Shown one piece after another: positions 23,633 through 41,197 of a stretch of DNA of 64,000 nucleotides; position 1 is the first letter of the stretch; each line of letters opens with the position of its first letter. The DNA is from Natronomonas aquatica (lineage in GTDB: Archaea > Halobacteriota > Halobacteria > Halobacteriales > Haloarculaceae). The DNA is taken from positions 723 through 64,722 of the forward strand of contig NZ_JAHLKM010000014.1 of NCBI RefSeq assembly GCF_024449025.1. The letters are read 5' to 3'. Position numbers and translations under genes: made by a program. The notes under the pieces were generated by a model. The model searched no databases. It saw nothing but the letters and a program-made list of their open reading frames with translations, and had not been told where the DNA came from.

Positions 23633-24335
23633 CGGTAATCCGCCGACGGCCGACGGGGCGACCCTCTCGGCGTTCCGGCTGGCCGACTCGTTCCTGCCGG
23701 TCGGGGCCTATACCGCGTCCTACGCTCTCGAGCAGTTCGTCCAGGACGACCGCGTCACGGACGGGACGGATCTGGAAGCCCTGCTGGAGACGTACCTCCG
23801 GCGGCAGGTCGGATCCGCCGAGCTAGTGGCACTGCGGGCGGCCCACGCGGCGGCGCTGGCCGGGGACTGCGAGACCGTCTGTGCGGCGGACCGACGGCTG
23901 ACCGCGGTGACGCTGGCCGCGGAGTTCCGTGACAGCGCCGAGCGATCCGGCGATCGGCTGTTGTCGCTCCAGCGGACGTTACGCGAGGCGGACCTGTTCG
24001 ATCGCTACGCCGAACGGGTCGATTCCGGCGACGCCCCGGGGAACTATCCGGTGGTGCTCGGCGCCTCGACGGCGCTGGCCGGCATCGACGAACGTGAGGC
24101 CTGTCTGCTGTGCTGTCACAGCTTCGTGACGGGACTGCTCGGCGCGGCCCAGCGGTTGCTGTCGTTGGGCCACACCGAGGCCCAGCGCGTCCTCGATTCG
24201 CTCCAGCCGGTGATAACCGACGTCGTCGACGACAGCGCCGACCGCTCGCTGGAGGAACTGTCGCAGTTCACGCCGCTGGTGGACGTGCTGGCGGCCGACC
24301 ACGAGCGGGCCGACCGACGGCTGTTCGTGAGTTGA
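23625..24335 (+). CDS. ureF: urease accessory protein UreF
   Basis: Bridges UreD and UreG in the nickel insertion complex, 236 residues. Starts MADGNPPTADGATLSAFRLADSFLPVGAYTASYALEQFV, where SFLPVGAYTASYALE is the UreF signature, and later blocks match (ALRAAHAAALAGDCETVCAADRRL, YPVVLGASTALAGI). It is mostly alpha-helical. This is the last gene of the seven-gene operon. No nickel transporter follows it. Confidence 0.93.
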   Translation: MADGNPPTADGATLSAFRLADSFLPVGAYTASYALEQFVQDDRVTDGTDLEALLETYLRRQVGSAELVALRAAHAAALAGDCETVCAADRRLTAVTLAAEFRDSAERSGDRLLSLQRTLREADLFDRYAERVDSGDAPGNYPVVLGASTALAGIDEREACLLCCHSFVTGLLGAAQRLLSLGHTEAQRVLDSLQPVITDVVDDSADRSLEELSQFTPLVDVLAADHERADRRLFVS

Positions 24336-24425: not shown

Positions 24426-25199
24426 TCAATGCTTGCCGCCGGTTACCTTGAGTTCGGTTCCGTTGACGAATCCGCCTTCCTCGGAGACCAAGAACAGGGC
24501 AGCGTTCGCCTGATCGCGAGGCGTCGCGATACGGTCGAGGAGGATCTGATCGCGGATCTCGTCGTCCGTCAGATCGTCCTCCATTACCGGCGCCTCCCCG
24601 GATCCGTCACCCGGTAGCGTCCGTTTCCCCGTTCTGGTCGGCGTGAGCGCGTTGACCCGGACGTCGTACTCCGCAAGCGCCGCGGCGGCGGATCTGGTGA
24701 AGTTGATCACACCGCCCTTCGAAGTTCCGTAGGCGACCGAGTTTGGCTCCGGGTTGTGCCCCGACGTAGAGCACATGTTTATGATCCGGCCAGAATCGGC
24801 GTCCCTCATCGACTTGCCACACTCCCGGGTGCAGAGGAACATTCCGCGCAGATTGACATCCATCGTCTTGTCGTAGATCTCGGTCGACATCTCCAGGAAG
24901 TCACAGACCTCCTTTATCGCCGCGTTGTTCACCAGTATGCTGATAGGGCCGAACGCGTCCTCGGCGCGATCGACCATCGCTCGCACCTGTTCTTCGTCGG
25001 AAACGTCGGTGGTAACCGATATCGCATCGTTTCCCGCCTCCAGTATTTCGTCCCGCGTGGAGTCGGCCCGCTCCTCGTCGATATCCGCGACGACGACGGA
25101 GGCGCCCTCCTCGGCGAACAGCTTTGCGATCGCTTCACCGATGTTTCGTCCCGCTCCAGTAACGACAGCAACATCACCCTGTAATCGGTCATTTCCCAT
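24426..25199 (-). CDS. short-chain dehydrogenase/reductase
   Basis: A 257-residue classical SDR that would oxidise or reduce an alcohol/ketone with NAD(P). Nucleotide motif TGAGRNIGEAIA at residues 14-25, NNAAI near 92 and the active-site YGTSKGG (YxxxK) near 158. The acidic D after beta-2 (VVADIDEERA) suggests NAD(H). The insert TRTGKRTLPGDGSGEAP after it is a substrate-loop variation. The substrate is unknown. I start at 25199 (MGNDRLQGDVAVV). It follows the MFS and chaperonin genes on the same strand (61 nt after the MFS stop), so the three may form one unit. Confidence 0.88.
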   Translation of the reverse strand: MGNDRLQGDVAVVTGAGRNIGEAIAKLFAEEGASVVVADIDEERADSTRDEILEAGNDAISVTTDVSDEEQVRAMVDRAEDAFGPISILVNNAAIKEVCDFLEMSTEIYDKTMDVNLRGMFLCTRECGKSMRDADSGRIINMCSTSGHNPEPNSVAYGTSKGGVINFTRSAAAALAEYDVRVNALTPTRTGKRTLPGDGSGEAPVMEDDLTDDEIRDQILLDRIATPRDQANAALFLVSEEGGFVNGTELKVTGGKH

Positions 25200-25260: not shown

Positions 25261-26565
25261 TTACATCTGCGAACTGGCGGTCGGTCGCTCGTTCGAGGGC
25301 GAGTCCAGCCAATAGACGACGGCACAGCCGATACCGACGACCATGGTCACCAGTCCGGTCCCACCGAGGACGTACTGGAGCGCGAGCGCGATACCGAGGT
25401 CGGGCTCGAGAACGGAGATGCCCAGGCCCAAAACGACCGGAGTGACGCTCGCCCCGACCCGTCCGAGAACCTCACTGATGCTGACGAGCCCCGCCCGCAA
25501 CCGTTTGGATGCAAACCCGGTGACCAGACTCCGGTAGAGTGCCCCACCGGTGCCGACTCCGACTGCGATACAGACGACCCCGAGGCCGGCGACGTATATC
25601 GACGGGCCGACCACGGTCAGGATCAACCCGATCCCCAGTCCCGCGTGTAGCACGATCAGCGGGCCGGTATACCCCCACCGGCCGGTCACCCGACCGGCCT
25701 GTGTCGAGACGATCGAGTAGATGCCGGCCCAAACGGAGATCAAAAGCGCCGTGAGACCGGGGGATCCGTCGAAGATGTTCGCAACGACGAGGGAGATGTA
25801 GGTGAGGAAAGCGAACATCGCGACGGAATAAAACGCCCGGGCGACGAGGATCGCGGCGACCCGACGCCGGAGGGCAGCCTTCAACACCTGTTTCGTGTAG
25901 CGTAGCCGTCCGCCGTCCCCACCCGTCGACGGCTCCCCTCCGTTACCGTCCATCCGAGCGTCGTTCGTGTGCAGATCGGCCGGTTCGTCGAACCACACGT
26001 ACAGGGTGACGGCGACTGGCAAGGCGAGCCCGTACAGCAGAAACGGGAGCTGCCAGGCGACCACGACCAGGCCGCCAGCGAGGATCGGAAACAGCGCGTT
26101 CGAGACGCCCCCCGTCGCGTTCCGGAGCCCCTGTCCGGTCGATTCCCGCTGTCCGCCATAGAGGTCACGAATGGTGGTAATGAGCGTCGGTAGCGTGAAC
26201 GCAAAGCCCGCCCCCTGTATAGTCCGGAGCGCAAGCACGACCCGAAAGTCCGTTGTGAAGGCTAGTGCGCTCCCGCCACCGCCGAACAGCAGTAGCCCGA
26301 CGATCAACACCGGGCGCCGACCGTACCAATCGGCCAGGCTCCCTCCGATCGGGATCAGCACTATCGCCGGGGCAGTAATGGCGGTGACCATGAGACCGAT
26401 AACTGCGGGGGAAACCGCGTACACTGTGGCGAGCGTATCGAGAATCGGCGACACGAGACTCGTCCCGAGAACGATGACCAGCTCCGCCGCGAGCAGGAGT
26501 TGGAAACGCGTTTCGGCGAGGATATCGGCGTCGTTACCGAAGAACAGCCGCGCAACCGTGGACAC
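25261..26565 (-). CDS. MFS transporter, drug/metabolite-permease type
   Basis: A 434-residue membrane protein of the major facilitator superfamily with about 12 helices. The N-terminal signature is GGSLADWYGRRPVLIVGLLLFGG, with the conserved loop 2-3 motif, and FRVVLALRTIQGAGFAFTLP follows in helix 4. A long acidic loop lies between the halves (DLHTNDARMDGNGGEPSTG). The substrate cannot be inferred; transporters of small organic molecules and drugs are both possible. I chose a GTG start at 26565 because the longer frame lies in the chaperonin gene and is basic. The chaperonin stop lies only 7 nt upstream. Confidence 0.85.
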   Translation of the reverse strand: MSTVARLFFGNDADILAETRFQLLLAAELVIVLGTSLVSPILDTLATVYAVSPAVIGLMVTAITAPAIVLIPIGGSLADWYGRRPVLIVGLLLFGGGGSALAFTTDFRVVLALRTIQGAGFAFTLPTLITTIRDLYGGQRESTGQGLRNATGGVSNALFPILAGGLVVVAWQLPFLLYGLALPVAVTLYVWFDEPADLHTNDARMDGNGGEPSTGGDGGRLRYTKQVLKAALRRRVAAILVARAFYSVAMFAFLTYISLVVANIFDGSPGLTALLISVWAGIYSIVSTQAGRVTGRWGYTGPLIVLHAGLGIGLILTVVGPSIYVAGLGVVCIAVGVGTGGALYRSLVTGFASKRLRAGLVSISEVLGRVGASVTPVVLGLGISVLEPDLGIALALQYVLGGTGLVTMVVGIGCAVVYWLDSPSNERPTASSQM

Positions 26566-26572
26566 GATAGCT

Positions 26573-28174
26573 CTAGTCCTGGGTCGCGCTTTCGGGCTGA
26601 ATCGAGTGCTGGGCCGGACCTTCGGGGGAAACCGCATCCGTCGACGGCTCCCCGTCGTCGGTAAGGAGGATACCGTCGATCCGTAACAACAGGATGGCGG
26701 TTTCCGTGGCCAGCCGAATCGACGAAGCCTTGGGCGAAAGCGGTTCAACGCGGCCGTTCGAGTACATATCGACGACGTCGCTGTCGGCGCCGTTGACGCC
26801 GAACCCGGTCATCCCCGCGTCGTGTTTGTTACGCAGTTCGACGACCGTATCGACCGGATCCATCCCCGCGTTCACAGCGAGGGTTTCGGGGATGGATTCC
26901 AGTGCGTCCGCATATGCCTGGACGGCGAGTTGTTTTCGGTCCTCGATGCCGTTTGCCCGCTCCCGCAGCGCCATAGAGGCGTGTAGTTCCGAAGCGCCAC
27001 CACCGGGAACGACCTTCCCGTCTTCGAGGAAACCATCGACGACGTGTAAACACTCCTCAACCGCGGTCTCGTACGTGTCTAGTGCCTGTTCGGTCCCGGC
27101 CTGCAACAGGACGGTTCTGGCCGAGGACCGCTCGTCGTTTTCGACGAAGGCGTACGTCTCGTCCCCGATTCCCCTCTTTCGGATCCGTTCGGCGTGGCCG
27201 AGGTCGGTCCCGGAGACGTCCTGAAGATGCAACACCTCGGTGGCGCCGGTCACTCGAGCCAGCTTCTCCATTACGTCGTTGTCGATCTGGTGGAACACCG
27301 CGATATCTCTTTCCGAGAGGCGCTGTTGGATCTCGTGGTCCGCGTTGTCCCGACTCGCCGAGAAGACGACGTCACAACCGGTGGCGGCCAGCATCCGGAC
27401 GAACTCGTCTTTCTTGTTCGCCTCCCCGTCGGTGAACCCTGTCCCGTTCCGTACGTTCCTCTCGATATCGTGGTTTGACTCGTTCAGCTGCAGCGAATCA
27501 CTCGTCAACAGGACGTTCACGTCGCGCAGCGGAAGCGACACTCGCGTGTGGTTCACCGGTCGGCGTTTTTTGACGCATACTCCGGGGATAGTGACCGAAT
27601 CGGTGACCTGTTTCCGGCTTACAGTGTATATTTCGACGTCGTCGACATCGATTTCTCGATTCCCCAGATCGTCACAGAGTGCATCTAACACGGTGTTGGC
27701 CAGGGAGCTGCTGTCGTCGAAGATAGTCTTCGATTCCAGATGCGTGGCGATCAGTTCCTCGAGGGACTGTCGGTCCCTCGCTCTGTTCGTCGATGCGGCC
27801 GCCATCGAAGCCGTGGCCTCCCGGGCAGCCATATCGTACGCGTCGGCGATGAGCGTCGGGTGGATCCCCTCGTCGACCAGTTCGAGGGCGTTCTCGACCA
27901 GTTCTCCCAGCAAGAGGAGCTCCAGGGTCGTATACACCGAACTGTTGTCCGAGATGTAGCTTCGGATGATATCGTAGGCGGGGTGTTCGATATCCATCTC
28001 GTCCAGTATCGTCTCGCTATCCTTCGAAACGACGGGCGTTCCGGAACTCCTGACGACCATTTTGTACAATCCCTTGGGCCCGAGCGTGGACCCGACAACA
28101 TCGGAGATGGCTTTACAGACCGCGAAGGGAGAGGTCAGATCGGCCCCGTCTACCCTCTCTGGTTTACTTCCCAT
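26573..28174 (-). CDS. divergent group II chaperonin (thermosome) paralogue
   Basis: A 533-residue homologue of thermosome subunits. LGPKGLYKMVV (residues 31-41), VVPGGGASE and AVNAGMDPVDTVVELR are clearly thermosome-like, and the length is near normal. The nucleotide motifs are altered. The loop usually written NDGAT is KDSET (51-55). The catalytic GDGTT loop is SVYTT (79-83), losing the key Asp and both Gly. It probably hydrolyses ATP poorly or not at all, and may act as a regulatory or client-specific partner of an active thermosome elsewhere. The C-terminus lacks the Gly/Met-rich tail. It is divergent from the ABC binding protein at 28465. Confidence 0.88.
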   Translation of the reverse strand: MGSKPERVDGADLTSPFAVCKAISDVVGSTLGPKGLYKMVVRSSGTPVVSKDSETILDEMDIEHPAYDIIRSYISDNSSVYTTLELLLLGELVENALELVDEGIHPTLIADAYDMAAREATASMAAASTNRARDRQSLEELIATHLESKTIFDDSSSLANTVLDALCDDLGNREIDVDDVEIYTVSRKQVTDSVTIPGVCVKKRRPVNHTRVSLPLRDVNVLLTSDSLQLNESNHDIERNVRNGTGFTDGEANKKDEFVRMLAATGCDVVFSASRDNADHEIQQRLSERDIAVFHQIDNDVMEKLARVTGATEVLHLQDVSGTDLGHAERIRKRGIGDETYAFVENDERSSARTVLLQAGTEQALDTYETAVEECLHVVDGFLEDGKVVPGGGASELHASMALRERANGIEDRKQLAVQAYADALESIPETLAVNAGMDPVDTVVELRNKHDAGMTGFGVNGADSDVVDMYSNGRVEPLSPKASSIRLATETAILLLRIDGILLTDDGEPSTDAVSPEGPAQHSIQPESATQD

Positions 28175-28435
28175 AGGCCATTTCTCTATACAAATCCTAA
28201 TGAATGTTTTGATTTAGTGATTGTAAGTCCTGTTATATCCAAATAAAAATTACATATGACCATCCAGTCCACGCAGAACGACTGATCTCCGTTCTGAAGT
28301 CCGGAGCAACCCGTTCACCGAGGGCTAGCCGGGGAGATAGTGATATACAGTATTCAAGAAACAATGTAAAGATCACAAAGGCATTCAGTACAATCCAATA
28401 TACAATAACGAATATCCAGAAATATCACCAGTAGC

Positions 28436-28443
28436 TTTATGAT
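28436..28443 (+). promoter_or_regulatory. TATA box of the binding-protein gene
   Basis: Ttatgata-type box (gctttatgatac) centred about 26 nt before the ATG at 28465. This spacing is typical for a leaderless haloarchaeal transcript. Confidence 0.5.
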
Positions 28444-28464
28444 ACACGATATCACATCATAGGT

Positions 28465-30201
28465 ATGGTCTCAGAAGACCAGCGTGTCGGGCGTAGAGAT
28501 ATCCTAAAAACAACCGGTGGCGTCGTTATCGGAGGCGGGTTAGCCGGATGCTCCGGTAACGGCGGTAACGGTAACGGCGGCAACGGCAACGGCGGCAACG
28601 GTAACGGCGGCAACGGCAACGGCAACGGCGGCGGTGGCGGTGGCGGGAGTTCCCAACCGGACTATGTCAACCGGCCCGAGCTGGGAAGTAGCCAACAGAT
28701 CATCACGGTAACGCTAGACCCCGGCTTTTCCGCCCCGTCTATCGACTCGACCGGTAACGTGTATCAGGCGAGCTACGATTTCCTCGTCGCGGAGTCCCCC
28801 GCCCCGGATCACGAACTCGTCCCGCGGCTGGCGACGGAGTGGGAAGTCATCGACAACCGGACGTTCGAGTTCACGCTCAAGGAAGGAGTCATGTTCCACT
28901 CGGGGAACGAACTCACCGCGGAGGACGTTATCTACTCGTTCGAGCGGGCGTATAACATGGAAGGTCCCGCGTTCTCGACGTTCAGAGGGTTCGTAACCCC
29001 CGAAGGGTTGAGCGCTCCCGACGATTATACCGTCAGGATAGAACTCGAGGAGCCGTGGGTACACTTCCTTGGCGCACTCGCGAACTTTTCGATCGTCGAT
29101 TCACAACTGGTCCAGGAGAACGAACAGGACGGGGACTGGGGTCACGAGTGGATGCAAAGCAACACTGCGGGCTGTGGCCCGTACGTGATGACGGAGTGGG
29201 ACAACAGCGCCCGCGTCCGGTGGGAGCGGTTCGAGGACTACCACGGGGGCTGGGATCACGTCGAGAACCCGATCGAGAACATCCAGGGGCAGAACATCGA
29301 GGAGAACTCGACGATAATCCAGATGTGGGATCAAAACGAGGCCCACTACACCGGACACAACCTGGCTCAGGAAACCTACGACCAACTCGAGCAGCGGGAC
29401 GATACGGTGATCAACGAGATCGACACGATCCAGGTCTGGATCATGACGTTCAACACCACCAAAGCCCCGTACGACGACGTCAACGTCCGGAACGCGATCT
29501 CGGAGGCGGTGGACTACGAGGCCGCACAGGATCTCATAATCCCGGGGTCGAGACCGGGAGCGGGTCCGGTCCCGAGACCGATGGCGGGTCACAACGATGA
29601 TATCGAGCCGGAGGGTGCCGCCGACCCCGAGGCCGCGCAGGATCTGCTCGATCAGGCGGATTACACGCTCGATGAGGTCAACGAAGCGGGGGGAATGCAG
29701 TTCGCGAAGTACCGCGATACCGGACCGGTGGATCGGGTCCCGCTCCTCTGGCAGGAAAACCTCGCACAGATCGACATCGAGTCTTCGATCCGGAACGTGA
29801 CGTTCGGCGAGATCTCCGACTCCACGGCGTCCCCCGAGGACGCGATCTCCGGGTACGGTGCCAACTGGCGGGGCGGCGGCGGCGCGCCGGTGACCGTGGA
29901 TCCCTACACGTACCTGTCGCACCACTCGTCGGTCCTCGGCTCGAATTTCTACACCGTCCACTGGTGGGAAGACGAGGAAGTCGACGAACTGATGGAGGAC
30001 GCACGGGCGTCGGAATCGTTAGAGGAGGCCCGTGAACCCTACAACGAAGCACAGCGGATCATTAATGACGCGAAGCCGCTGATGTGGGTGTCCAATCCGA
30101 GGCACTTCGTGATGATGCGAGAGGAAATAGACGGGTTCAATTACAGAGCGACGACGGGCCAGCGGTGGTATCCCTACGAGTGGTCGTGGAACCCCGAGTG
30201 A
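28465..30201 (+). CDS. ABC transporter substrate-binding protein, peptide/opine/nickel type
   Basis: A 578-residue extracytoplasmic receptor of the SBP_bac_5 family. N-terminus: Tat motif GRRDILKTTGG, hydrophobic stretch and lipobox LAGC at residues 25-28, then a Gly-Asn-rich linker of about 35 residues. Mature-domain blocks include GTVY-like ASYDFLVAESPAPDHELVPRLATEWEV, FELKEGVMFHSGNELTAEDVIYSFER and AISEAVDYEAAQDLI. The family usually imports peptides or small amides. It must work with the DppBCDF genes from 37097 on, although those lie 7 kb away and are separated by hydrolase genes. The substrate could be a hydantoin or ureide, judged from the neighbours. Confidence 0.92.
   Translation: MVSEDQRVGRRDILKTTGGVVIGGGLAGCSGNGGNGNGGNGNGGNGNGGNGNGNGGGGGGGSSQPDYVNRPELGSSQQIITVTLDPGFSAPSIDSTGNVYQASYDFLVAESPAPDHELVPRLATEWEVIDNRTFEFTLKEGVMFHSGNELTAEDVIYSFERAYNMEGPAFSTFRGFVTPEGLSAPDDYTVRIELEEPWVHFLGALANFSIVDSQLVQENEQDGDWGHEWMQSNTAGCGPYVMTEWDNSARVRWERFEDYHGGWDHVENPIENIQGQNIEENSTIIQMWDQNEAHYTGHNLAQETYDQLEQRDDTVINEIDTIQVWIMTFNTTKAPYDDVNVRNAISEAVDYEAAQDLIIPGSRPGAGPVPRPMAGHNDDIEPEGAADPEAAQDLLDQADYTLDEVNEAGGMQFAKYRDTGPVDRVPLLWQENLAQIDIESSIRNVTFGEISDSTASPEDAISGYGANWRGGGGAPVTVDPYTYLSHHSSVLGSNFYTVHWWEDEEVDELMEDARASESLEEAREPYNEAQRIINDAKPLMWVSNPRHFVMMREEIDGFNYRATTGQRWYPYEWSWNPE
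28554..28648 (+). repeat. Gly-Asn codon repeat (lipoprotein linker)
   Basis: Tandem variants of ggcggtaacggtaacggc, about 95 nt, encoding (GGNGN)n after the lipobox cysteine. A very similar, independently arranged tract is found in livK (57102-57209). Both probably vary in length by slippage. Confidence 0.85.
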
Positions 30202-30453: not shown

Positions 30454-31197
30454 ATGGTCGAAAAAGACCTGCGAGGGAGACGAGCACTCATTACCGGCGC
30501 GAGTTCGGGAATTGGAAGGAAAACGGCGGAGGAATTCGCTGCCAGGGGAGCGGACGTCGCGGTGGCTTCCCGGCGGGAGGACGTTCTCAAAGAGCTGGCC
30601 GAGACACTCGAAAACGAAGCGGACATCGAGGCATTAGCCGTAGAGATGGACGTGACCGATGAAACCCAAGTCGCTCGCGGGGTATCGAGTATCGTCGATG
30701 CGTTCGGGGGACTCGATATCGTCGTGAACAACGCGGGTATCGGTTGTGGGGGACCGATCACACAGGTTTCGACGGAGGAGTACCGGTCCGTGATGTCGGT
30801 CAACGTCGACGGGATGTTCTTCGTTACACGCGAGACCATGCCACACCTTCTGGATTCCGAAGGAGCCCTGCTCTTCGTCGGCAGCACGTCCGGCCGGTAT
30901 CCCCGGCCCGATTATCCGATATATGCCGCTTCGAAGTGGTGGACCCGAGGGTTCGCGCTCAGTATCGCCGGACAAGCCGGTGAAGACGGCGTGGCGGTGA
31001 CGTTAATAAATCCCGGCACGACTCGCACCGACTTCGGCTCGTCGTTCCGAGCGTCGAACACGGAAAAATACGACGCTGGGGAAGCGCTCGATCCGAAAGA
31101 CGTCGCCGAGACGATCGCTTTCGCCGCGAAACAGGAGGCCCCGACAACGATTTCCGAACTCGCGGTTACGATGCGGGATTCATTATCGAATACGTAA
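30454..31197 (+). CDS. short-chain dehydrogenase/reductase
   Basis: A 247-residue classical SDR. Motifs: ITGASSGIGRKTAEEFAARGADVAVASRRED (nucleotide site; Arg pair after beta-2 suggests NADP), NNAGIG near residue 92, catalytic YAASKWW (YxxxK) near 152 and INPGTTRTDFG. The substrate is unknown, but it lies between the transporter binding protein and the hydantoinase genes, so it may act on the same catabolic route. It is not closely similar to the SDR at 24426. The start is fixed by the TATA box 26 nt upstream. Confidence 0.87.
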   Translation: MVEKDLRGRRALITGASSGIGRKTAEEFAARGADVAVASRREDVLKELAETLENEADIEALAVEMDVTDETQVARGVSSIVDAFGGLDIVVNNAGIGCGGPITQVSTEEYRSVMSVNVDGMFFVTRETMPHLLDSEGALLFVGSTSGRYPRPDYPIYAASKWWTRGFALSIAGQAGEDGVAVTLINPGTTRTDFGSSFRASNTEKYDAGEALDPKDVAETIAFAAKQEAPTTISELAVTMRDSLSNT

Positions 31198-31400: not shown

Positions 31401-31420
31401 AGGAGATGTCAGTACGTAGC

Positions 31421-33235
31421 ATGGCAGATGGGACCAGCCCGAACGTTAGCATCGGGGACGGGGATCTCGAGCCGTTTCAGATGACCGTGTTGTCGAAGAA
31501 GTTCGAAGAAGCGATCACGGTGATGTCACAGTCACTGATGAGTTCGGCCAGATCGGGGGTCATAAACAGCGCTCGGGATTTCACCTCGGCGTTTACACTA
31601 TACGACAGCCGGCAGTTCATGTACGACAAAGGTCTGCCAGTTCACGCGGCAAACGTCCACCTGATTCCGGAATACACGCTGGACAAATTCGACGACATCT
31701 CGGCCGGCGACTGTTTTCTGACGAACTCGACGTATGCCGGGAACACCCACCACGCGGATTACACGCTCCACGTCCCGGTGTTCTACGAGGGTGAGCCGCT
31801 GTTTTGGGTACTCAACCGGGCACACCAGGCAGACGTCGGTGCCCCCCAGCCCACGACGTACGTGGCCGACGCGAAGGACATCTACGAGGAGGGACCCCAC
31901 CTCCCGGCGGTCCGCATTCAGGAGGACTACGAGGACAAAGAGGACCTCATCCGAACGCTGAAGCTTAACATTCGGGCCGGGGACTGGCAGTGGTACGGGG
32001 ACTATCGGGCACAGGTTGCAGCCGTCAGGAAAGGCGAAGAGATGATTCAGGAGATCTGTGCCGAGTACGGGGTCGAGTTAGTGCGACAGTTCACCGAAGA
32101 GTGGATCGACTACGGCGAACGGATGATGGAAGCCGAACTGGAGAAGCTCCCCGAGGCCGAGATACAGCACACGACACGCCACGATCCCGTGCCGTTCAAC
32201 GACGCCGCCCCGGAGGGTATTCCGGTCACGGTCAAAGTGAAGACACATCCGGACGAGGGCCGGATTTCGGTCGATCTGACCGACAACGGCGAGAACATCC
32301 CCGCCGGCTTCAACCTCTCGGAGGCGACCACCATCGCAGGAGTGTACGGCGGGATCTTCTATAATATCGACTCTGACCTACCCCAGAATCACGGCGCGAT
32401 AAAACGTGTCTCGATCGAGATGGACGAGGGAAAGATCGTCGGGGAGCCGGAGCCGCCCGTCGGGACGTCCGTGGCGACGACGAACGTGTGTGATGCCCTG
32501 TTCAACGCGATGCAGGCCGTGTTCGGGGATCTGGGCGAACCGTACGGCGTAAGCGAAGGGACCGGCGGCACTCAGCCCCACTGTTCGGTCGTCTCGGGCA
32601 CCGACTTTCGACGGGACGACGAGTTCTACATCAATCAGCTCATCTTCAACGCCGGCGGGGGGGCTTCCTGTTACGGCCACGACGGGTGGATCACCTACGG
32701 GCAGTCCAACAACAACGGCGTCGTGACGTTAGAGAGCATCGAAAACGCCGAGCAGAACTATCCGATACTCGTACACCAGTACGAACTCGCCACTGACACG
32801 GGCGGGGCCGGTCGGTGGCGCGGGGGACCGGGCGTCAGAATCGAACTGGGTCCCCGCGAAGACGAGATGACGGCGGCGTACTGCAACATGCAGACGGCGT
32901 ATCCTCCCCAAGGGATCGTCGGCGGCGACGACGGGACGACGACCGAGGTACACAAACGAACGCAGGACGGCGAACTCAAGGAACTGCCGGGCATGGGGTA
33001 TCCCGTCTTCGAAGCCGGCGAGACGCTCGTCAGCACGATGTGCGGTGGCGGTGGATACGGGGATCCGACCGAGCGGGATCCGGAGGCGGTGAAACGGGAC
33101 GTCGAGGCGGGACTCGTCTCCCCGAAAGCCGCCAGGGATAGCTATGGCGTCGTCATCGAACCGGCCGAGAGTGGGATCTCTCTCGACGAGGAGAAAACAC
33201 GGACACTGCGGGAAGAACGCACGGAGGAACGATGA
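31421..33235 (+). CDS. hyuB: hydantoinase B/oxoprolinase family subunit
   Basis: A 604-residue HyuB-type subunit. The opening PNVSIGDGDLEPFQMTVLSKKFEEAITVMSQSL and AGDCFLTNSTYAGNTHHADYTLHVPVFYEGEPLFWVLNRAHQADVG are typical, as is the C-terminal MCGGGGYGDPTERDPEAVKRDVEAGLVSPKAA. With HyuA, such proteins make ATP-dependent hydantoin/5-oxoproline hydrolases (N-methylhydantoinase, 5-oxoprolinase) or carboxylases. Which one cannot be told here. The last codon region overlaps the hyuA start by 4 nt (ATGA), so both are co-translated. The ATG at 31406 is an alternative, but its TATA context favours 31421. Confidence 0.93.
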   Translation: MADGTSPNVSIGDGDLEPFQMTVLSKKFEEAITVMSQSLMSSARSGVINSARDFTSAFTLYDSRQFMYDKGLPVHAANVHLIPEYTLDKFDDISAGDCFLTNSTYAGNTHHADYTLHVPVFYEGEPLFWVLNRAHQADVGAPQPTTYVADAKDIYEEGPHLPAVRIQEDYEDKEDLIRTLKLNIRAGDWQWYGDYRAQVAAVRKGEEMIQEICAEYGVELVRQFTEEWIDYGERMMEAELEKLPEAEIQHTTRHDPVPFNDAAPEGIPVTVKVKTHPDEGRISVDLTDNGENIPAGFNLSEATTIAGVYGGIFYNIDSDLPQNHGAIKRVSIEMDEGKIVGEPEPPVGTSVATTNVCDALFNAMQAVFGDLGEPYGVSEGTGGTQPHCSVVSGTDFRRDDEFYINQLIFNAGGGASCYGHDGWITYGQSNNNGVVTLESIENAEQNYPILVHQYELATDTGGAGRWRGGPGVRIELGPREDEMTAAYCNMQTAYPPQGIVGGDDGTTTEVHKRTQDGELKELPGMGYPVFEAGETLVSTMCGGGGYGDPTERDPEAVKRDVEAGLVSPKAARDSYGVVIEPAESGISLDEEKTRTLREERTEER

Positions 33236-35301
33236 GTTATCACCTCAGCATCGACATCGGCGGGACGTTCACGGATCTCTTCCTTCGGGATTCAGAGGGG
33301 GGATCGCTATCGGTGAAAGTCCCGAGCACTCACGGGGATCTGACGGACGGCGTAATAAACGCCCTGGACAAGGCGGCCGATACCGAGGGGATCACTCGTG
33401 GGACGCTCCTGGATCGGACAGGGCAAATCGTCCACGGGACGACTATCGCGACGAACGCTATCCTCGAAGGCGAGACGGCAAAGACAGCCTTGCTCTGTAC
33501 GGACGGCTTCCGTGACACGCTGATGTTCCGTAATGGCGGCCGGGAGAACGCCTTCGAGGTACACGTCGACTACCCGGATCCGTACATCCCGCGATCGCTC
33601 ACCTACGGCGTCGGGGAACGGGTGAACGCCGAGGGCGAGGTCGTCACCCCACTAAACGAGGAAAGCGTGATCGATGCCATCGATCGGGCGGTCGAGCGAG
33701 ACTGTAACGCCGTCGCGGTCTCGCTTCTCTGGGCACACGTGAATCCGGCCCACGAACGGCGTATCGCGTCGCTCATCGACGAACACGCGCCCGGACTGAA
33801 CTACTCGCTCAGCCACCGCGTGAACCCGATCATCCGCGAGTATCGCCGGACGTCGGCGACGGCGATCGATGCGTCGCTCAAGGAGCCGATCGCGAGTTAC
33901 CTGTCCCGGCTCCGCGACCGGCTCGAAGAGAACGGGTACACGAAAGAGCCGCTTCTCATCACCGCAAACGGTGGCGTGATGCAGTTCGACGATGTCGTCG
34001 AGTTACCGATCTGGTCCGTCGACTCCGGACCGACGATGCTTCCGTCGGCGGGACTGCAGACCACACGGCTGGAGTTGGAAACGGAGACGCCGAACGTGAT
34101 CGCCCTCGATATGGGCGGGACGAGCCTCGATATGAGCCTTATCCGGGGGGGTAACGTTTCGCGGACGAGGGACGCCGAGGTGGCCGACAGCATCCTCGGC
34201 ATCGAAAAAGTGGACGTCAGAAGTATCGGATCCGGCGGCGGAAGCATCGCGTGGGTCGACGAGGGGGGACTCCTCCACGTCGGTCCCGAGAGTGCGGGCT
34301 CCTCGCCCGGCCCGGTCTGTTACGGGCAGGGCGGGGAGCGACCGACGATCACCGATGCTGCGCTGGTCTTGGGTTACCTGTCGAAGGACCAACAGCTCGG
34401 CGGCGAGATGTCGATCGACTTCGAGGCGGCCGAAGAGGCGATCGACGAACGGATCGCCGACGAACTCGGCGTATCGACGATAGAGGCCGCCCACACGATC
34501 TACGCCACCGCGAACCAGGACATGGTCACCGGTATGCGGGAGGTCACGATCGAACGGGGGATCGATCCCCGAGAGTACGTCGTCTGTGGTGGCGGCGGCG
34601 CTCTCGGGTTGCACGTCGTTCCCTTGGCTCGCGAACTGGGTGTCGAGGAGATCATACTACCGCGGGAGGCCGGCGTTATCAGCGCGATCGGGGGGTCGTA
34701 CTCCGATATCCGACACGACTTCTCGGCGACCCAGCAGACGAAAAGCGACACGTTCGACCTCGATGCGGTAAACGAGACGCTCGGCTCGTTGACGGACAAA
34801 TCACGCCGGTTCCTCGATAGTGTCGGGGCGGACGAAAGGGACCGTGAACTCACGTACTACACCGAGGCCAGATACACACAGCAAGCCTGGGAGGTAGAGG
34901 TTGCCATCCCCTCACCACCGTTCGATCCGGCCGACGTGGAGAAGCTGGTCGACCGGTTTCACGAGAGCCACGAAGCGACCTACGGATACCGGATGGAGGA
35001 TCAGGATATCAGGTTCATCCACTGGCGGGTCGAGGCGAGCGCCCGAACCGACGACCAGCAGACGGGTGCGCCTGCCAGAGATACGACAGCGCCGGAGAGT
35101 GACGCCCTCCGTGGCCGAAGTCCGGCGTACTTCGGCACCGAACGGATCGACGTTCCGCGTTACCACGGTCCGTCACTCGCCGTCGGTCGTTCGATCGAGG
35201 GAGCGGCCGTCATCGAGGCGAAGAACACGACCATCGTCTTGCCGCAAGACAGCCGTCTCGAGATCACTGACCGTGGGAACTACCGGATCCTGAACCGCTA
35301 G
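33232..35301 (+). CDS. hyuA: hydantoinase A/oxoprolinase family subunit
   Basis: A 689-residue HyuA-type subunit of the ASKHA-ATPase fold. The phosphate-1 motif SIDIGGTFTDLFL (residues 6-18), HGTTIATNAILEGE and the phosphate-2 motif ALDMGGTSLDMSLIRGG are present. The adjoining SVDSGPTMLPSAGL and the CGGGGALGLHVVPLARELGV block are also typical. It drives ring opening by ATP hydrolysis, working with HyuB. It starts inside the hyuB stop (ATGA) and its own stop is 7 nt from the convergent amidohydrolase gene. An N-methylhydantoinase or 5-oxoprolinase role is equally consistent with sequence. Confidence 0.94.
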   Translation: MSYHLSIDIGGTFTDLFLRDSEGGSLSVKVPSTHGDLTDGVINALDKAADTEGITRGTLLDRTGQIVHGTTIATNAILEGETAKTALLCTDGFRDTLMFRNGGRENAFEVHVDYPDPYIPRSLTYGVGERVNAEGEVVTPLNEESVIDAIDRAVERDCNAVAVSLLWAHVNPAHERRIASLIDEHAPGLNYSLSHRVNPIIREYRRTSATAIDASLKEPIASYLSRLRDRLEENGYTKEPLLITANGGVMQFDDVVELPIWSVDSGPTMLPSAGLQTTRLELETETPNVIALDMGGTSLDMSLIRGGNVSRTRDAEVADSILGIEKVDVRSIGSGGGSIAWVDEGGLLHVGPESAGSSPGPVCYGQGGERPTITDAALVLGYLSKDQQLGGEMSIDFEAAEEAIDERIADELGVSTIEAAHTIYATANQDMVTGMREVTIERGIDPREYVVCGGGGALGLHVVPLARELGVEEIILPREAGVISAIGGSYSDIRHDFSATQQTKSDTFDLDAVNETLGSLTDKSRRFLDSVGADERDRELTYYTEARYTQQAWEVEVAIPSPPFDPADVEKLVDRFHESHEATYGYRMEDQDIRFIHWRVEASARTDDQQTGAPARDTTAPESDALRGRSPAYFGTERIDVPRYHGPSLAVGRSIEGAAVIEAKNTTIVLPQDSRLEITDRGNYRILNR

Positions 35302-35308
35302 CTCGTCG

Positions 35309-36727
35309 TTATCCACGAAGGGGCTGTTGGGAGTTCTCCCACTCGGGGAGTTCGCGCTCTATGAACTCACCGTGTCCGGGATCGGCGACGATCTCACCGT
35401 CGTCGGCGACGAGTCGCCCTCGAACGAACGTCTTTTCGACCCAACCGGTCACGTCGGCACCCTCGTAGATCGAAAAGTCGGACACAGCGGCGTTGTCAGC
35501 GGCGGAGATCGTGTGGGTGCGTGAGGGGTCGAAAACGATGATATCCGCGTCCGTACCCGGATCGAGAGAGCCCTTGTTCGACAGCCCGAACGTCCGGGCG
35601 GGGTTCGTCGACATGACGCGGACGAGGTCGGGATAGGAGAACCCGCGTTCGACGACGGCCTCATCGTGAAACACGGGGAGGCTCCTCTGGAGCGAATTGA
35701 CGCCGAAGGTATCACAGTCCCACCAGTTATCGACCTGCTTGCTCTCTTTTTTATACGAACTGTGATCGGTCGAGACGACGCTTAATGCTCCCCCTCGGAG
35801 GTGTTCGAACATGGCCTCGACGTCGTCGGGACTGCGTATCGGAGGAGCCATCAGCGGGAGGTTCCCCAGCGATCCGTAGATGGAGTCGTCATGTACCGTG
35901 TAGTGAGTACAGGTTTCCGCACGTATTTCGCTTCCGTCCTCCTGGTACCGTTCGAGTACGTCGGCCGCCATTCGGCTGGTCGTGTGGACGCCGTAATACT
36001 GAGCGCCCGCCTCTTGAGCCATGCGCGCGATGTCGTCGGCAGCCATCGCCTCCGTGTAGTCGGGTCGGGAATCCGGATAGTCCTCGGGAGCACCCCGGTT
36101 TTCCCTCCGTAGTTTCTCCGTCAGCTGATCACAGACCGACTGATCCTCGGTGTGAAAGACCCCGACCGCGCCGAGTTCGCCGATGCGTCCCAACACCTGA
36201 TCGATAAACCCGTTCGAGAGGCCGATCTCGTAGGCGGTGAACACTTTGAATGACGAGACACCGGTATGTACGGCGTCTTCGATGTGGTCTAGGTTTGATT
36301 GCGTCTCGTTGACGAGTACTGCGTGGACGCCGAAATCGATGACCGCCTCCTCCTCTCCGGCGGTTCGTTGTCGTTCGATCCCGGTGAGTATTGTCGTATC
36401 GGGGTCGTATGGGCTATCCTCGCCTTCCCAACCCTCCCAGGCGAAATTAATGAAGGTCGTGATACCACCGAGTGCGGCGGCTTTGGTGGCTGTTTCGTAC
36501 GAGTCGAGCGCCCGGGTTTCATCGTGTGCGTGAACGTGTGGGTCGACCATACCGGGCATCACGAGTTTGTCGGTCGCATCGATCCGTCTCTCCGTATCGG
36601 GCAACGATCCCTCGTTCCCGATCGATACGATCGTCCCGTCGTCGATCGCGATCGAGGAACGTACCGTTCGGTCAGGATGGACGAGCGTACCGCCGGCGAT
36701 TATCGTATCTACTACGTTCGATGACAC
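35309..36727 (-). CDS. cyclic amidohydrolase (dihydropyrimidinase/hydantoinase/allantoinase type)
   Basis: A 472-residue metal-dependent ring-opening hydrolase. Metal ligands by family: H64 and H66 (DPHVHAHDE), carbamylated lysine K161 (SSFKVFTAYE), H192 (FHTEDQ), the H in YGVHTTSR and D in VVSTDHSSYKKE. The barrel contains the family blocks GGITTFINFAWEGWEG and FGLSNKGSLDPGTDADIIVFDPSRTH. It would open a cyclic amide such as hydantoin, dihydropyrimidine or allantoin to a carbamoyl product, which could pass to the HyuC-like enzyme at 42009. I chose GTG at 36727 (MSSNVVDTIIAGGTL). A TATA-like aatttaagt sits about 28 nt upstream. The ATG at 36775 is the alternative. Confidence 0.88.
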   Translation of the reverse strand: MSSNVVDTIIAGGTLVHPDRTVRSSIAIDDGTIVSIGNEGSLPDTERRIDATDKLVMPGMVDPHVHAHDETRALDSYETATKAAALGGITTFINFAWEGWEGEDSPYDPDTTILTGIERQRTAGEEEAVIDFGVHAVLVNETQSNLDHIEDAVHTGVSSFKVFTAYEIGLSNGFIDQVLGRIGELGAVGVFHTEDQSVCDQLTEKLRRENRGAPEDYPDSRPDYTEAMAADDIARMAQEAGAQYYGVHTTSRMAADVLERYQEDGSEIRAETCTHYTVHDDSIYGSLGNLPLMAPPIRSPDDVEAMFEHLRGGALSVVSTDHSSYKKESKQVDNWWDCDTFGVNSLQRSLPVFHDEAVVERGFSYPDLVRVMSTNPARTFGLSNKGSLDPGTDADIIVFDPSRTHTISAADNAAVSDFSIYEGADVTGWVEKTFVRGRLVADDGEIVADPGHGEFIERELPEWENSQQPLRG

Positions 36728-37096
36728 GGTTGAACCGTCTACATATTTGTACTTAAATTTATTGTAAGTGGTCATATTCCAGAACAAGACCCAAATATAT
36801 CCAAATTATCAATTTCAGAACCGAACCGGAACGGTATACGGATGCGTGTTTCCACGTTTTCACGGAGAAAGCGGACGACAAAACGGGAGAGAGATAGAAC
36901 TGCGACTCGGGACTGATCTACGAACTCCACCGGTCACGGTCCCCGAAGCCAGACCCGACAGAAAAGAGAGGTAATATACCGCGAAGTATCGGTCCGGTAT
37001 TGTGGCATCCGTTCGATTTATATAACAATGTACTCAAACGACTTACTGTACGAATGAGAACGGGTTGCACGTACAAATGGAGGAACGTATTAGATA
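36728..37096. other. A+T-rich divergent promoter region
   Basis: About 370 nt between the divergent amidohydrolase and dppB genes, without a credible gene. Candidate TATA boxes are aaatttaagt (36751-36760, minus) and tttatataac (near 37018, plus). GGAGG (37079-37083) precedes the dppB start by 13 nt. Confidence 0.5.
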
Positions 37097-38110
37097 ATGG
37101 CCTCGTATAAAAAATTCGTACTCTTGCGAATCCCGCAGGTCGTCCTGACACTCGTTGGGTTGAGCATCCTGATTTTCACACTGGTACGTTTCATCCCGTC
37201 GGATCCAGCCCGGACAGCTATCGGCCCGGGGGCGTCGGAGGAGGTGTACCAGGAGTATCGTGAGGAGCTACGGCTGGATGAGCCGCTCCATATGCAGTAT
37301 ATCGGTTTCGTTCAGGACATCTTCAACGGATCACTGGGGGAATCAACGCGAACCGGCAACGATGTCGCCGTCGATATCATAGAGAAACTCCCCGCGACGC
37401 TGGAACTGATCGCGTTGGGCTTTACCGTGGCGGTACTGCTCGGGATCCCGTTCGGGATCGTCGCGGGGTTGAACAAGGATCGGCTCCCGGATCACTTCTC
37501 TCGGTTCGTGGCGCTGTCGGGCATCGCGTTTCCGAGGTTCTGGCTCGCCATCACCTTTCAGGTGGTCTTGGTCTCCTGGCTCGGGTTGTTCCCACTGACG
37601 GGGAGAATCTCGGGTGCTGCTCCCGCACATGTGACCGGGTTTTACACCATCGACAGTTTGATCGCAGGAAACTTTGATAAGTTTACTGACGCGGTCTGGC
37701 ATCTCATCCTCCCTGCGACAGCCCTGGGATTCTCCACGTTCTCGCAGGTGACAAGATTAGTCCGTTCGGAGATGATCGAAATCTCACGGGCAGATTACAT
37801 AATGACCGGGCGATCTCAGGGGATACCCGAATGGATGATCGCGTATAAATACATGTTGAAGAACGCGTTCAGTAGCACGTTGACCGTCCTGGGATTCAGG
37901 ATCGGCGGGATGCTTTCGGGGGCAACGTTCGTCGAGTTGATCTTCAACATCGACGGGATCGGGAGATACACGCTGGCGTCTATCGTCCGTCTCGATTACA
38001 ACGCGATCGTCGGCGTCGTGTTGGTACTGGGAGTTACGTACCTCATTTCGAGCGCTATCGTCGATATGCTGTACGGGTATCTGGACCCGAGGATACGGTT
38101 GGAGGCGTAA
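37097..38110 (+). CDS. dppB: dipeptide-type ABC transporter permease
   Basis: A 337-residue DppB/OppB-family permease. The first helix RIPQVVLTLVGLSILIFTLVRFIPSDPAR and the N-terminal motif GPGASEEVYQEYREELRLDEPLHMQY are diagnostic, and the EAA loop is RSQGIPEWMIAYKYMLKNAF. Six helices are predicted. It pairs with DppC at 38112. The gene set dppBCDF starts here and overlaps closely, so it is one operon. The receptor is most likely the binding protein at 28465. Confidence 0.94.
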   Translation: MASYKKFVLLRIPQVVLTLVGLSILIFTLVRFIPSDPARTAIGPGASEEVYQEYREELRLDEPLHMQYIGFVQDIFNGSLGESTRTGNDVAVDIIEKLPATLELIALGFTVAVLLGIPFGIVAGLNKDRLPDHFSRFVALSGIAFPRFWLAITFQVVLVSWLGLFPLTGRISGAAPAHVTGFYTIDSLIAGNFDKFTDAVWHLILPATALGFSTFSQVTRLVRSEMIEISRADYIMTGRSQGIPEWMIAYKYMLKNAFSSTLTVLGFRIGGMLSGATFVELIFNIDGIGRYTLASIVRLDYNAIVGVVLVLGVTYLISSAIVDMLYGYLDPRIRLEA

Positions 38111-38111
38111 T

Positions 38112-39023
38112 ATGTCCGGGATACTGAACTCAGAAATGTCAAGCGAACGAGAAGAACAGATAGACAATCTCAAACGGCTTTGGTCGAGGTTCACGGCAAA
38201 CACGCTAACCGTGGTCGGGACGCTCATCGTGGTGTCCGTGATTTTCGCCGCGATATTCGCGCCATACATAGCCCCGTATCCACAGCACGCCGAGGGGGGA
38301 GTAGGCTCGGTCGACAACGATAACCGGCTCGCCGAACCCAGCACGGAGCACCTCATGGGGACCGACGATAGCGGACGGGACATCTTCTCGAGAGTCCTCT
38401 ACGGCGCACGAATCTCGTTGCAGATGATGACCATCGCGCTCACACTCTCTATTTCGGTAGGCGGGACACTGGGACTGGTAGCCGGAATGAAGGGTGGGAT
38501 CACGAAGGTTATCATAATGAGGACGGCGGACACCTTCATGTCGATCCCGGCGCTGGTGCTGGCGATGGTGGTCGCGGGGTTACTCGAGCCGAACCTGTAC
38601 ATATCGATGGTTGCGGTCTCCGTGTATTGGTGGACGCTGTACTGTCGACTGGTGCAAGGGGAGGTGAACTCGATCAAAGAGGAGGAGTTCGTAGAGGCCG
38701 ATCGCGCGCTGGGGTCACCCTGGTACAATACGGCAGTCAAAGAGATTCTCCCAAACATCATCACGCCGGTACTCGTCAAGGCCACCATCGATGCAGGGTT
38801 CATTATTCTGCTGGCAGCCGGTCTGGGCTTTCTCGGTCTGGGAACCCAACCCCCGACGCCGGATTGGGGCGTGATGGTTGCCCAGGGTAGAGACTTCGTA
38901 CTCACGTCGTGGTGGGTCTCGACGCTCCCCGGCCTCGCGATCGCATACACGGTGTACGGGTTCAATCTGTTGGGTGACGGATTGCGTGACGTGTTCGACG
39001 TGGAGGTAGATGTAAATGAGTAA
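38112..39023 (+). CDS. dppC: dipeptide-type ABC transporter permease
   Basis: A 303-residue DppC/OppC-family permease. It has an N-terminal helix (LTVVGTLIVVSVIFAAIFAPYIAPY), a linker with TEHLMGTDDSGRDIFSRVLYGARIS (family signature) and the EAA loop DRALGSPWYNTAVKEILPNI. The C-terminal GLGFLGLGTQPPTPDWGVMVAQGR is also typical. It begins 1 nt after dppB stops and its end overlaps dppD by 8 nt. Confidence 0.94.
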   Translation: MSGILNSEMSSEREEQIDNLKRLWSRFTANTLTVVGTLIVVSVIFAAIFAPYIAPYPQHAEGGVGSVDNDNRLAEPSTEHLMGTDDSGRDIFSRVLYGARISLQMMTIALTLSISVGGTLGLVAGMKGGITKVIIMRTADTFMSIPALVLAMVVAGLLEPNLYISMVAVSVYWWTLYCRLVQGEVNSIKEEEFVEADRALGSPWYNTAVKEILPNIITPVLVKATIDAGFIILLAAGLGFLGLGTQPPTPDWGVMVAQGRDFVLTSWWVSTLPGLAIAYTVYGFNLLGDGLRDVFDVEVDVNE

Positions 39024-40104
39024 TCCAATCCTCGAGATCAACGACCTGAAAGCAAGCTTCAAGACGTACGAGGGGACCGCTAACGTACTCGATGGTATCG
39101 ATCTGACCATTCATGAAGGGGAGGCGATGGCACTGGTCGGAGAGACCGGCTGTGGAAAGAGTCTGACAACCGAGCTCATCTTGGATCTGGTTCCGGCCGC
39201 TCGAACGAGCGGCGAAATGAAATTCAAAGACGAGGTCGTGTATTCTCCAAGCGTCGACGAGCGGAGCACGCTCCGGGGAGAAAACATAAGCATAATTATG
39301 CAAGATCCGATGAGTTCCCTGAATCCCGTCTTCACGATAGGGGAGCAGATGACCGATATACTCCTGTTCGGAGGGGGTGAGAAGAGCCCCATCGATTATC
39401 TAAAGCACAAGCTCACGAGGAACGGTGCGGAACGGAAGAAGGCGAGGGAACGTGCAAGAGAAGTACTGAACGAAGTCCAGATTTCATCGCCTGAACGTGT
39501 CCTATCGAGCTATCCGAGCGAACTCTCCGGCGGTATGAGACAGCGAATCCTGATCGGGATGGCGTTGCTCGCCGATCCCGATCTTCTCATCGCCGACGAA
39601 CCGGGAACGGCACTCGACGTGACGACTGAAAAGAAGATACTGGAGATACTGAAAGATATCGTCGATAACCGGGACACTAGCGTGATATACATCACACACG
39701 ACCTGGGTGTGGCACACGAAGTGAGCGACAGGGTGACCGTGATGTACGCCGGCCAGGTCGTAGAACGATCCCCGACCGACGTGATATTCGATACTCCCAT
39801 GCATCCGTACACGAGGACACTTCTGGAGAGCGTTCCGTCGCTCTCGACGGGAATCGGGGAAGGGTCGGAGGGATCTATACCGAGTTATGTCGACGTCGAG
39901 GCGGAGTGCAGATTCGCGGATCGGTGTGAGTTTTCGGAAGCGGCATGCAGGGGAGTCCATCCGGGCGAGCGGACCCTCGATCAGGGTCAATCCGTCGCAT
40001 GCCATCTATACAAACAGGACACAGGCGGCCGTTCGGCCGACGATACCGACGAGCCGTACATCGGTCCACCACCCTGGAGAACGGAACAGAAACGAGCGGA
40101 TTAA
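39016..40104 (+). CDS. dppD: dipeptide-type ABC transporter ATPase
   Basis: A 362-residue ATP-binding subunit. Walker A GETGCGKSLT (residues 42-51), Q-loop IMQDPMSSLNPV, signature LSGGMRQRILIGMAL, Walker B LLIADEPGTALD and the switch His in TSVIYITHDLG. The C-terminal oligopeptide-ABC domain has four cysteines (CRFADRCEFSEAACRG...SVACHL), as in DppD-type ATPases. The start overlaps dppC and the next ATPase starts 19 nt after its stop. Confidence 0.95.
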   Translation: MSNPILEINDLKASFKTYEGTANVLDGIDLTIHEGEAMALVGETGCGKSLTTELILDLVPAARTSGEMKFKDEVVYSPSVDERSTLRGENISIIMQDPMSSLNPVFTIGEQMTDILLFGGGEKSPIDYLKHKLTRNGAERKKARERAREVLNEVQISSPERVLSSYPSELSGGMRQRILIGMALLADPDLLIADEPGTALDVTTEKKILEILKDIVDNRDTSVIYITHDLGVAHEVSDRVTVMYAGQVVERSPTDVIFDTPMHPYTRTLLESVPSLSTGIGEGSEGSIPSYVDVEAECRFADRCEFSEAACRGVHPGERTLDQGQSVACHLYKQDTGGRSADDTDEPYIGPPPWRTEQKRAD

Positions 40105-40123
40105 ACGCACAAGGAACACAAAA

Positions 40124-41197
40124 ATGGTTAACGAGATCACTCACGCGGACGTAGCACACGAGAAACACCCGTCTGGCGACCCGCACGAATATCTGCTGCG
40201 GAAGGATCCTCTAGTGCGGGTCAGACACCTGAAAAAGCACTATAGTGCAGGTGGTATATTCGACAAGAAGAAAATAAAAGCGGTGGACGGGATAAGCTTC
40301 GCCATCCCGGAGGGAAGTACCTTCGGGCTCGTCGGGGAATCGGGGTGCGGGAAGTCAACGACCGGCAAGTGCCTCTCCCGAATAGAAGAACCAACCAGTG
40401 GTGAGATCAGGATCGACGGGACCGACGTCCTGGATCTACCCGCAGACGAACTCCGGAAGTTCCGGCAGAAGGTACAGATAGTGTATCAGGATCCGGGATC
40501 GAGTCTCAATCCCCGCAAAAAGATCAGAAAGATAATCGCGAAGCCGCTGAATATTCACTCGATCGGGACAAAAAAAGAGAGGACCGAGCGGGTCGATACC
40601 CTTCTGGAGGCGGTCGGGCTACCGCTGGAATACAAATACAAGTACCCGAACGAACTGTCGGGAGGGCAGAAACAGCGGGTCAGTATCGCACGGGCGCTGT
40701 CCGTCGATCCCGAACTGATCATTCTGGACGAACCGACCAGTGCGCTAGACGCCAGCGTTCAGGCGAGAGTCCTGACACTACTGAAAGATCTACAGGAAGA
40801 GGAGAACATCACGTACTTCCACATCACACATAACCTCTCGGTCATAAAGGACGTTGCCGATTGGATCGGGATCATGTATCTGGGTAAACTGGTCGAAGTC
40901 GGCGATGTCGACGCGATTTTCTCCGATCCCCAGCACCCATATACCCGCGCGTTACTCTCCTCGATACCTATAATAAAGAGCGAGGACGACGACCTCAAAC
41001 CGGATCGGATCGATCTCGAAGGCGAGATACCGGATCCCGAAAACGTACCGTCCGGGTGTGCCTTCCGAACGCGGTGTCCAAAGGCGTTCGATGAGTGCAG
41101 CAGAACGGATCCGGAGTTCTACGAGATTGAGGAGGGCCACTACTCTCGGTGTTTGCTTAACGAGGAGTATTCCTTCAGAAACGATTTCGGGGACTGA
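40124..41197 (+). CDS. dppF: dipeptide-type ABC transporter ATPase
   Basis: A 357-residue second ATP-binding subunit. Walker A GESGCGKSTTG, Q-loop VYQDPGSSLNPRK, signature LSGGQKQRVSIARAL, Walker B LIILDEPTSALDASVQ, and ITHNLSVIKDVAD after it. The C-terminal block CAFRTRCPKAFDECSRTDPEFYE again has paired cysteines. I chose the ATG at 40124 (MVNEITHADVAHEKHPS). The long upstream frame lies over dppD. It is the last gene of the dppBCDF operon. Confidence 0.94.
   Translation: MVNEITHADVAHEKHPSGDPHEYLLRKDPLVRVRHLKKHYSAGGIFDKKKIKAVDGISFAIPEGSTFGLVGESGCGKSTTGKCLSRIEEPTSGEIRIDGTDVLDLPADELRKFRQKVQIVYQDPGSSLNPRKKIRKIIAKPLNIHSIGTKKERTERVDTLLEAVGLPLEYKYKYPNELSGGQKQRVSIARALSVDPELIILDEPTSALDASVQARVLTLLKDLQEEENITYFHITHNLSVIKDVADWIGIMYLGKLVEVGDVDAIFSDPQHPYTRALLSSIPIIKSEDDDLKPDRIDLEGEIPDPENVPSGCAFRTRCPKAFDECSRTDPEFYEIEEGHYSRCLLNEEYSFRNDFGD

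Follow-up and report, generated by a model that had tools for sequence, protein, structure and literature searches.

Why does a haloarchaeon carry, beside hydantoinase and transport genes, a chaperonin that lacks its catalytic motif? We addressed this question in Natronomonas aquatica, in a stretch of 64,000 nucleotides (the window) containing such a gene. The original prediction, made from the sequence alone, had proposed that the encoded protein is either a dedicated assembly factor for the large Hyu enzymes or a subunit that modifies a mixed thermosome.

A fourth chaperonin paralogue and its gene neighbourhood

The window chaperonin matched the Pfam family Cpn60_TCP1 (PF00118) with 370 bits, against a cut-off of 34.3, over positions 1-487 of the 490 in the profile, and the motifs GPKG, VVPGGGASE and NAGMDP were all found in it. 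When its AlphaFold model (mean pLDDT 78.6) was searched with Foldseek, the best matches were Mm-cpn and thermosomes, in both closed and open forms, with a TM of about 0.8 across some 500 columns; the model shows the complete three-domain fold of a thermosome. Residues 33-51, a segment that in thermosomes touches the neighbouring subunit, were modelled with low confidence. Thus, the family match, the conserved motifs and the predicted fold all agree with the original assignment to the group II chaperonins.

The N. aquatica genome encodes three canonical thermosome subunits, and the window chaperonin is a fourth paralogue, which matches solved thermosomes by sequence and has up to about 37% identity to the thermosomes of named genomes. 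It shares with the archaeal thermosome (TIGR02339; haloarchaeal CCT1-3) the fold, the domain order, the built-in lid region and the GPKG, VVPGGG and NAGxDP motifs, at 29-37% identity. In contrast to that system, it has lost the GDGTT and D386-equivalent aspartates, lies beside catabolic genes and fails to reach the cut-offs that NCBI itself sets for thermosome subunits: it scored 354.5 bits with TIGR02339 (cut-off 671.1), 348.6 with NF041082 (cut-off 450) and 335.2 with the third thermosome model of the NF041082/3 set (cut-off 400). The gene and its neighbours are arranged as follows.

24426..25199, minus strand: short-chain dehydrogenase, downstream of the MFS gene
25261..26565, minus strand: MFS carrier (Pfam MFS_1), with a probable GTG start 7 bp past the chaperonin stop
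26573..28174, minus strand: diverged group II chaperonin (thermosome paralogue), 533 aa, ORF intact; GDGTT replaced by SVYTT, NDGAT by KDSET and the D386/D398 equivalent by E374
28175..28464, no strand: intergenic region of 290 bp, common to the chaperonin (minus) and the ABC substrate-binding protein (plus)
28465..30201, plus strand: ABC transporter substrate-binding protein, family 5 (dipeptide/nickel type)
30454..31197, plus strand: short-chain dehydrogenase
31406..33235, plus strand: HyuB (hydantoinase B/oxoprolinase); nearest named model caprolactamase beta, below cut-off
33232..35301, plus strand: HyuA (hydantoinase A/oxoprolinase); nearest named model caprolactamase alpha, below cut-off
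35309..36787, minus strand: dihydropyrimidinase/hydantoinase-type amidohydrolase
37097..41197, plus strand: ABC transporter of the dppB-dppC-dppD-dppF type, two permeases and two ATPases
42009..43247, minus strand: M20 hydantoinase/carbamoylase family amidase, above the NCBIfam cut-off

As originally described, the chaperonin gene lies divergently beside transporter and hydantoinase genes, and the 290-bp gap that separates it from the ABC/hyu cluster would hold divergent promoters. A transcript shared with the MFS carrier and a dehydrogenase had also been proposed. Because the MFS start lies 7 bp from the chaperonin stop, these two genes are probably transcribed together; for the dehydrogenase, the observation is that it follows the MFS gene. 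The M20 amidase has 63-74% identity to genes adjoining other accessory chaperonins. Directly preceding the chaperonin-MFS-dehydrogenase unit, positions 19401-24335 carry urease genes, among them ureC and ureF, between which lie putative ureG, ureD and ureE; genes for urea/amide nitrogen catabolism are thus abundant throughout the region.

The codon-position GC of the chaperonin gene (63/41/75) matches that of the adjoining genes, and the acidic residues of its product (D+E, 17.8%) equal those of its neighbours. It also retains 81 of the 132 positions that are invariant in canonical sequences (61%; the average for the hyu clade described below is 55%). These sequence statistics indicate that the gene is neither a chance product nor a frameshifted relic. 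A pseudogene was judged less likely on the coding statistics.

Catalytic residues of the window chaperonin

The original prediction reported that SVYTT (residues 79-83) takes the place of the catalytic GDGTT, and this was borne out: GDG is gone. Its aspartate is present in 84/84 canonical sequences and the exact GDGTT in 82/84; given the invariance of the aspartate, we rejected the idea that the motif was lost by chance. The hydrolysis loop is three residues shorter than the canonical one and aligners place a gap at GDG, but the aspartate is absent under either alignment. At the second motif reported as changed, KDSET (51-55) does replace NDG[VA]T, of which rare canonical variants exist. However, loss of the whole site does not hold, since Asp52, the counterpart of an aspartate found in all 84 canonical sequences, is retained within KDSET. 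Judged by its residues, the NDGAT site is only partly lost.

A further catalytic change had been overlooked. Glu374 (AVEECL) stands at the position equivalent to Mm-cpn D386 and GroEL D398, two numberings that we take to denote the same residue, and this position is Asp in 84/84 canonical sequences. With two catalytic aspartates changed, the predicted impairment of ATP hydrolysis is strongly supported at the sequence level, and from this we infer a loss of ATPase activity. Lys149, Thr82-83, the GPxG loop, GGG and the equatorial core are retained, so nucleotide binding may survive.

In the Thermoplasma acidophilum thermosome, changing the GDGTT aspartate to lysine abolishes hydrolysis in homo-oligomeric alpha, while alpha8beta8 complexes with D93K in beta still assemble and are functional; the inactive beta raises ATPase and folding above the level of alpha16 (PMC5983026). 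Together with the motif pattern, these results suggest that the window chaperonin would behave as a subunit that may bind nucleotide and hardly hydrolyses it.

Accessory chaperonins across haloarchaea

Searches of plasmids for relatives returned many diverged copies annotated as 'TCP-1/cpn60 chaperonin family protein' beside catabolic genes. We therefore considered accessory chaperonins as a class. They were gathered across haloarchaea by protein similarity, not by their neighbours, and genes within 8 kb were scored against a fixed reference set. On the tree, the copies linked to formamidase (fmd) form one clade and those linked to hydantoinase and polyamine-type transport genes (hyu) form another; the sugar-linked copies are of more than one origin.

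A formamidase gene was found near 56 of the 57 members of the fmd clade, within 900 bp in 52 of them, often with an AmiS/UreI-type transporter gene too. In the hyu clade, 21/22 lie near catabolic markers (polyamine-type ABC transporter, hydantoinase and asparaginase genes): a polyamine-type ABC ATPase in 20/22, a polysaccharide-deacetylase-family gene in 16/22, hyuA, hyuB, dihydropyrimidinase or M20 amidase in 14/22, and asparaginase in 9/22. All 11 members of the sugar lineages have sugar-catabolism or transport genes nearby. The reference set came from loci within the fmd, hyu and sugar groups themselves, which biases the precise percentages in their favour; the informative contrast is with the canonical thermosome loci, where 0/81 had any amide-catabolism or sugar marker within 8 kb. 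For amide markers, the accessory and canonical loci differed with a Fisher p of about 1e-35, a descriptive value because the sequences are not independent. Conversely, 26 of the 31 genomes with FmdA also carry a formamidase-linked chaperonin. Linkage to catabolic clusters, which had been inferred from location at one locus, is thus supported for the accessory haloarchaeal chaperonins as a class, hydantoinase/dihydropyrimidinase-type genes included.

Individual loci illustrate these arrangements. More than 50 loci in addition to L098, L103 and L108, from many haloarchaeal genera, have an fmd-clade chaperonin adjoining formamidase, mostly a few hundred bases away. Two accessory lineages occur as a convergent pair within one sugar-acid cluster at L109 (7911-9602 and 9690-11258) and at L111 (7962-9542 and 9539-11221), which suggests hetero-oligomeric accessory rings. 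Tandem diverged thermosome genes, one with NNGAT/GDGTK, lie in a catabolic region of a Haladaptatus QDMS2 plasmid (L118, 6056-7783 and 7917-9500). On a Natrinema caseinilyticum plasmid (L115, 7911-9497), an acyl-CoA/AMP-ligase cluster contains a very long-branch chaperonin with the motifs RDCFR and DDGVV and Ala at the D398 position. At L110, L116 and L117 the chaperonin gene is flanked by polyamine-type ABC transporter genes, so that a transporter, not an enzyme, could be the client.

Catalytic erosion recurs among these accessory chaperonins. K or Q occupies the D398-equivalent position in all 22 hyu-clade sequences, and the aspartate is lost in 23/57 of the fmd clade and 5/11 of the sugar lineages; the tree has 12 changes at this position, none of them among the 84 canonical sequences. 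Repeated loss of this kind would be predicted for accessory subunits that can do without ATP hydrolysis of their own. The GDGTT aspartate, in contrast, is kept in every fmd, hyu and sugar-lineage sequence and lost solely in the window chaperonin. The formamidase-linked chaperonins, often encoded on megaplasmids (for example N. pharaonis PL131 WP_011324481.1 and H. marismortui WP_011222547.1), resemble it as extra diverged thermosome paralogues by amide-catabolism genes, but differ in keeping this aspartate (57/57), in adjoining formamidase and in forming their own clade. The hydantoinase/polyamine-ABC-linked chaperonins (for example Halobellus limi WP_160113980.1) share with it hyuA/hyuB, dihydropyrimidinase and M20 amidase neighbours and a lost D398-equivalent, but they too keep the GDGTT aspartate and form a separate, well-supported clade.

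We found no account of a cluster-linked chaperonin class in the literature searched, which was open access only and gives weak evidence of absence; chaperonins go unmentioned in the H. lacusprofundi acetamidase paper. The class therefore appears undescribed in that literature.

On the enzyme side, a conserved neighbourhood was looked for and none was found: no chaperonin lies near 31 dihydropyrimidinase loci and the two closest hyuAB loci of the same family. This result counts against a client specific to this cluster: in general, its enzymes can do without a dedicated chaperonin. One more dihydropyrimidinase locus in the genus (G134, L191) stands outside the 31, having been fetched via its hyu-clade chaperonin, 6.5 kb away. 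With these chaperonin-free loci and no orthologue of the window chaperonin found, the proposed dedicated Hyu assembly factor is unsupported. The formamidase linkage is far tighter than that to Hyu and is a better place to test the idea of a dedicated client. No fmdA lies within 8 kb of the window chaperonin, and the N. aquatica genome gave no FmdA match at E<=1e-90.

The search for orthologues covered GTDB contigs, 146 genomes of the family, 392 of the class, plasmids, phages and viral contigs, and returned none; in the class-wide part, three candidates per genome were scored, so an orthologue outside the family may have been missed. The best matches in all collections had about 36-40% identity, and those inspected had canonical motifs. 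In the best tree, the window chaperonin sits on a very long branch, among the longest, outside the hyu and fmd clades. Approximately unbiased (AU) tests did not reject its grouping with the CCT1 type (p = 0.373), the hyu clade (p = 0.248) or the fmd clade (p = 0.086). As these tests do not discriminate, firm placement with any clade was dropped.

Possible roles of the window chaperonin

Our preferred model, which we hold tentatively and at a little less than even confidence, is that the window chaperonin works in mixed rings as an accessory subunit that has itself lost ATPase activity, and favours the products of the catabolic and transport gene cluster beside it. The protein would be co-produced with this cluster and would join rings with the canonical thermosome subunits of the genome. 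These would provide the ATP hydrolysis, the accessory subunit having none of its own. Its presence would alter which new proteins are captured, in favour of its own cluster's products; candidate clients are the hydantoinase-family enzymes, the MFS carrier or ABC components. The model draws on the three canonical partners, the thermosome fold and the change of both aspartates while the pocket and core are kept; on the 7-bp spacing to the MFS gene, the divergent hyu/ABC cluster and the class-wide catabolic neighbourhoods; and on the T. acidophilum precedent of alpha8beta8 with an inactive beta (PMC5983026). The structure was modelled as a single chain, and mixing in rings is proposed purely by analogy; on that footing, we favour modification of a mixed thermosome over the other role originally suggested.

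Other explanations deserve weight. Chaperonin-like proteins of the BBS group (MKKS/BBS6, BBS10, BBS12) aid assembly of one specific complex. Like the window chaperonin, they are diverged group II paralogues, and two of them, MKKS and BBS12, are without the GDGT hydrolysis motif; MKKS reportedly occurs as a free monomer (PMC2846930). They are eukaryotic and of independent origin, whereas the window chaperonin is archaeal and cluster-linked, so the likeness is in mechanism only. The window chaperonin could similarly be a self-standing, ATP-independent holdase or scaffold, monomeric or homo-oligomeric, that holds subunits of the cluster enzymes without a folding cycle. Loss of both catalytic aspartates fits this, as does the low-confidence segment 33-51 in the subunit-contact region, although the same would be expected of any subunit of a ring when modelled in isolation. 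We consider a holdase unlikely: the nucleotide pocket is largely kept (GPxG, T82-T83, K149, D52, GGG), and a pure holdase would not need it.

To a similar degree we doubt that the gene is a duplicate that is diverging or decaying, has hardly any function today, if any at all, and has been kept by chance on a variable genome segment. The failure to find an orthologue, with 0 matches among the 19 other genomes of the genus searched, and the unique loss of the GDGTT aspartate would fit such decay, and relaxed constraint also fits the very long branch. Yet the ORF runs unbroken for 533 codons, a larger share of canonical invariants is kept than the hyu clade keeps on average, codon-position GC and acidity are those of neighbouring coding genes, the next gene is tightly spaced and the fold is confident. 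Less probable still is that the window chaperonin represents no independent lineage and is a divergent member of the hyu/polyamine-ABC clade, inherited with its cluster, in which an extra aspartate was lost. The neighbours are alike (hydantoinase, dihydropyrimidinase, M20 amidase, ABC transporter) and a tree with it inside the clade is not rejected, but the best tree places it outside, groupings with CCT1 and the fmd clade are not rejected either, and two sites set it apart: its E374 contrasts with K or Q in the clade, and its SVYTT with a motif whose DG the clade retains.

More broadly, haloarchaea might repeatedly convert duplicated thermosome subunits into pathway-dedicated chaperonins inside catabolic clusters, with their catalytic aspartates eroding in parallel; the window chaperonin would be the extreme case, acting via mixed rings or as a scaffold. 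We regard this generalisation as possible, with somewhat more reserve than the mixed-ring model for the single protein. Chlamydial GroEL3 and other extra GroELs are likewise duplicated, diverged chaperonins beside a canonical one, and the window chaperonin gave a weak match to a GroEL3 model; those proteins, however, are group I and bacterial.

Chaperonins are seen as general folding machines, and CCT/TRiC is the textbook case of paralogous subunits specialised for clients. If true, our proposal would mean that prokaryotes too have extra subunits, tied one by one to metabolic clusters. Client specialisation and the loss of ATPase from a subunit would then be directly testable in genetically tractable haloarchaea, and these proteins would show, as independent natural replicates, the same kind of loss of catalytic residues that the human BBS chaperonin-like proteins have undergone. 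Across haloarchaea, related spare subunits lie beside nutrient-breakdown genes, as if single pathways had gained their own folding helper.
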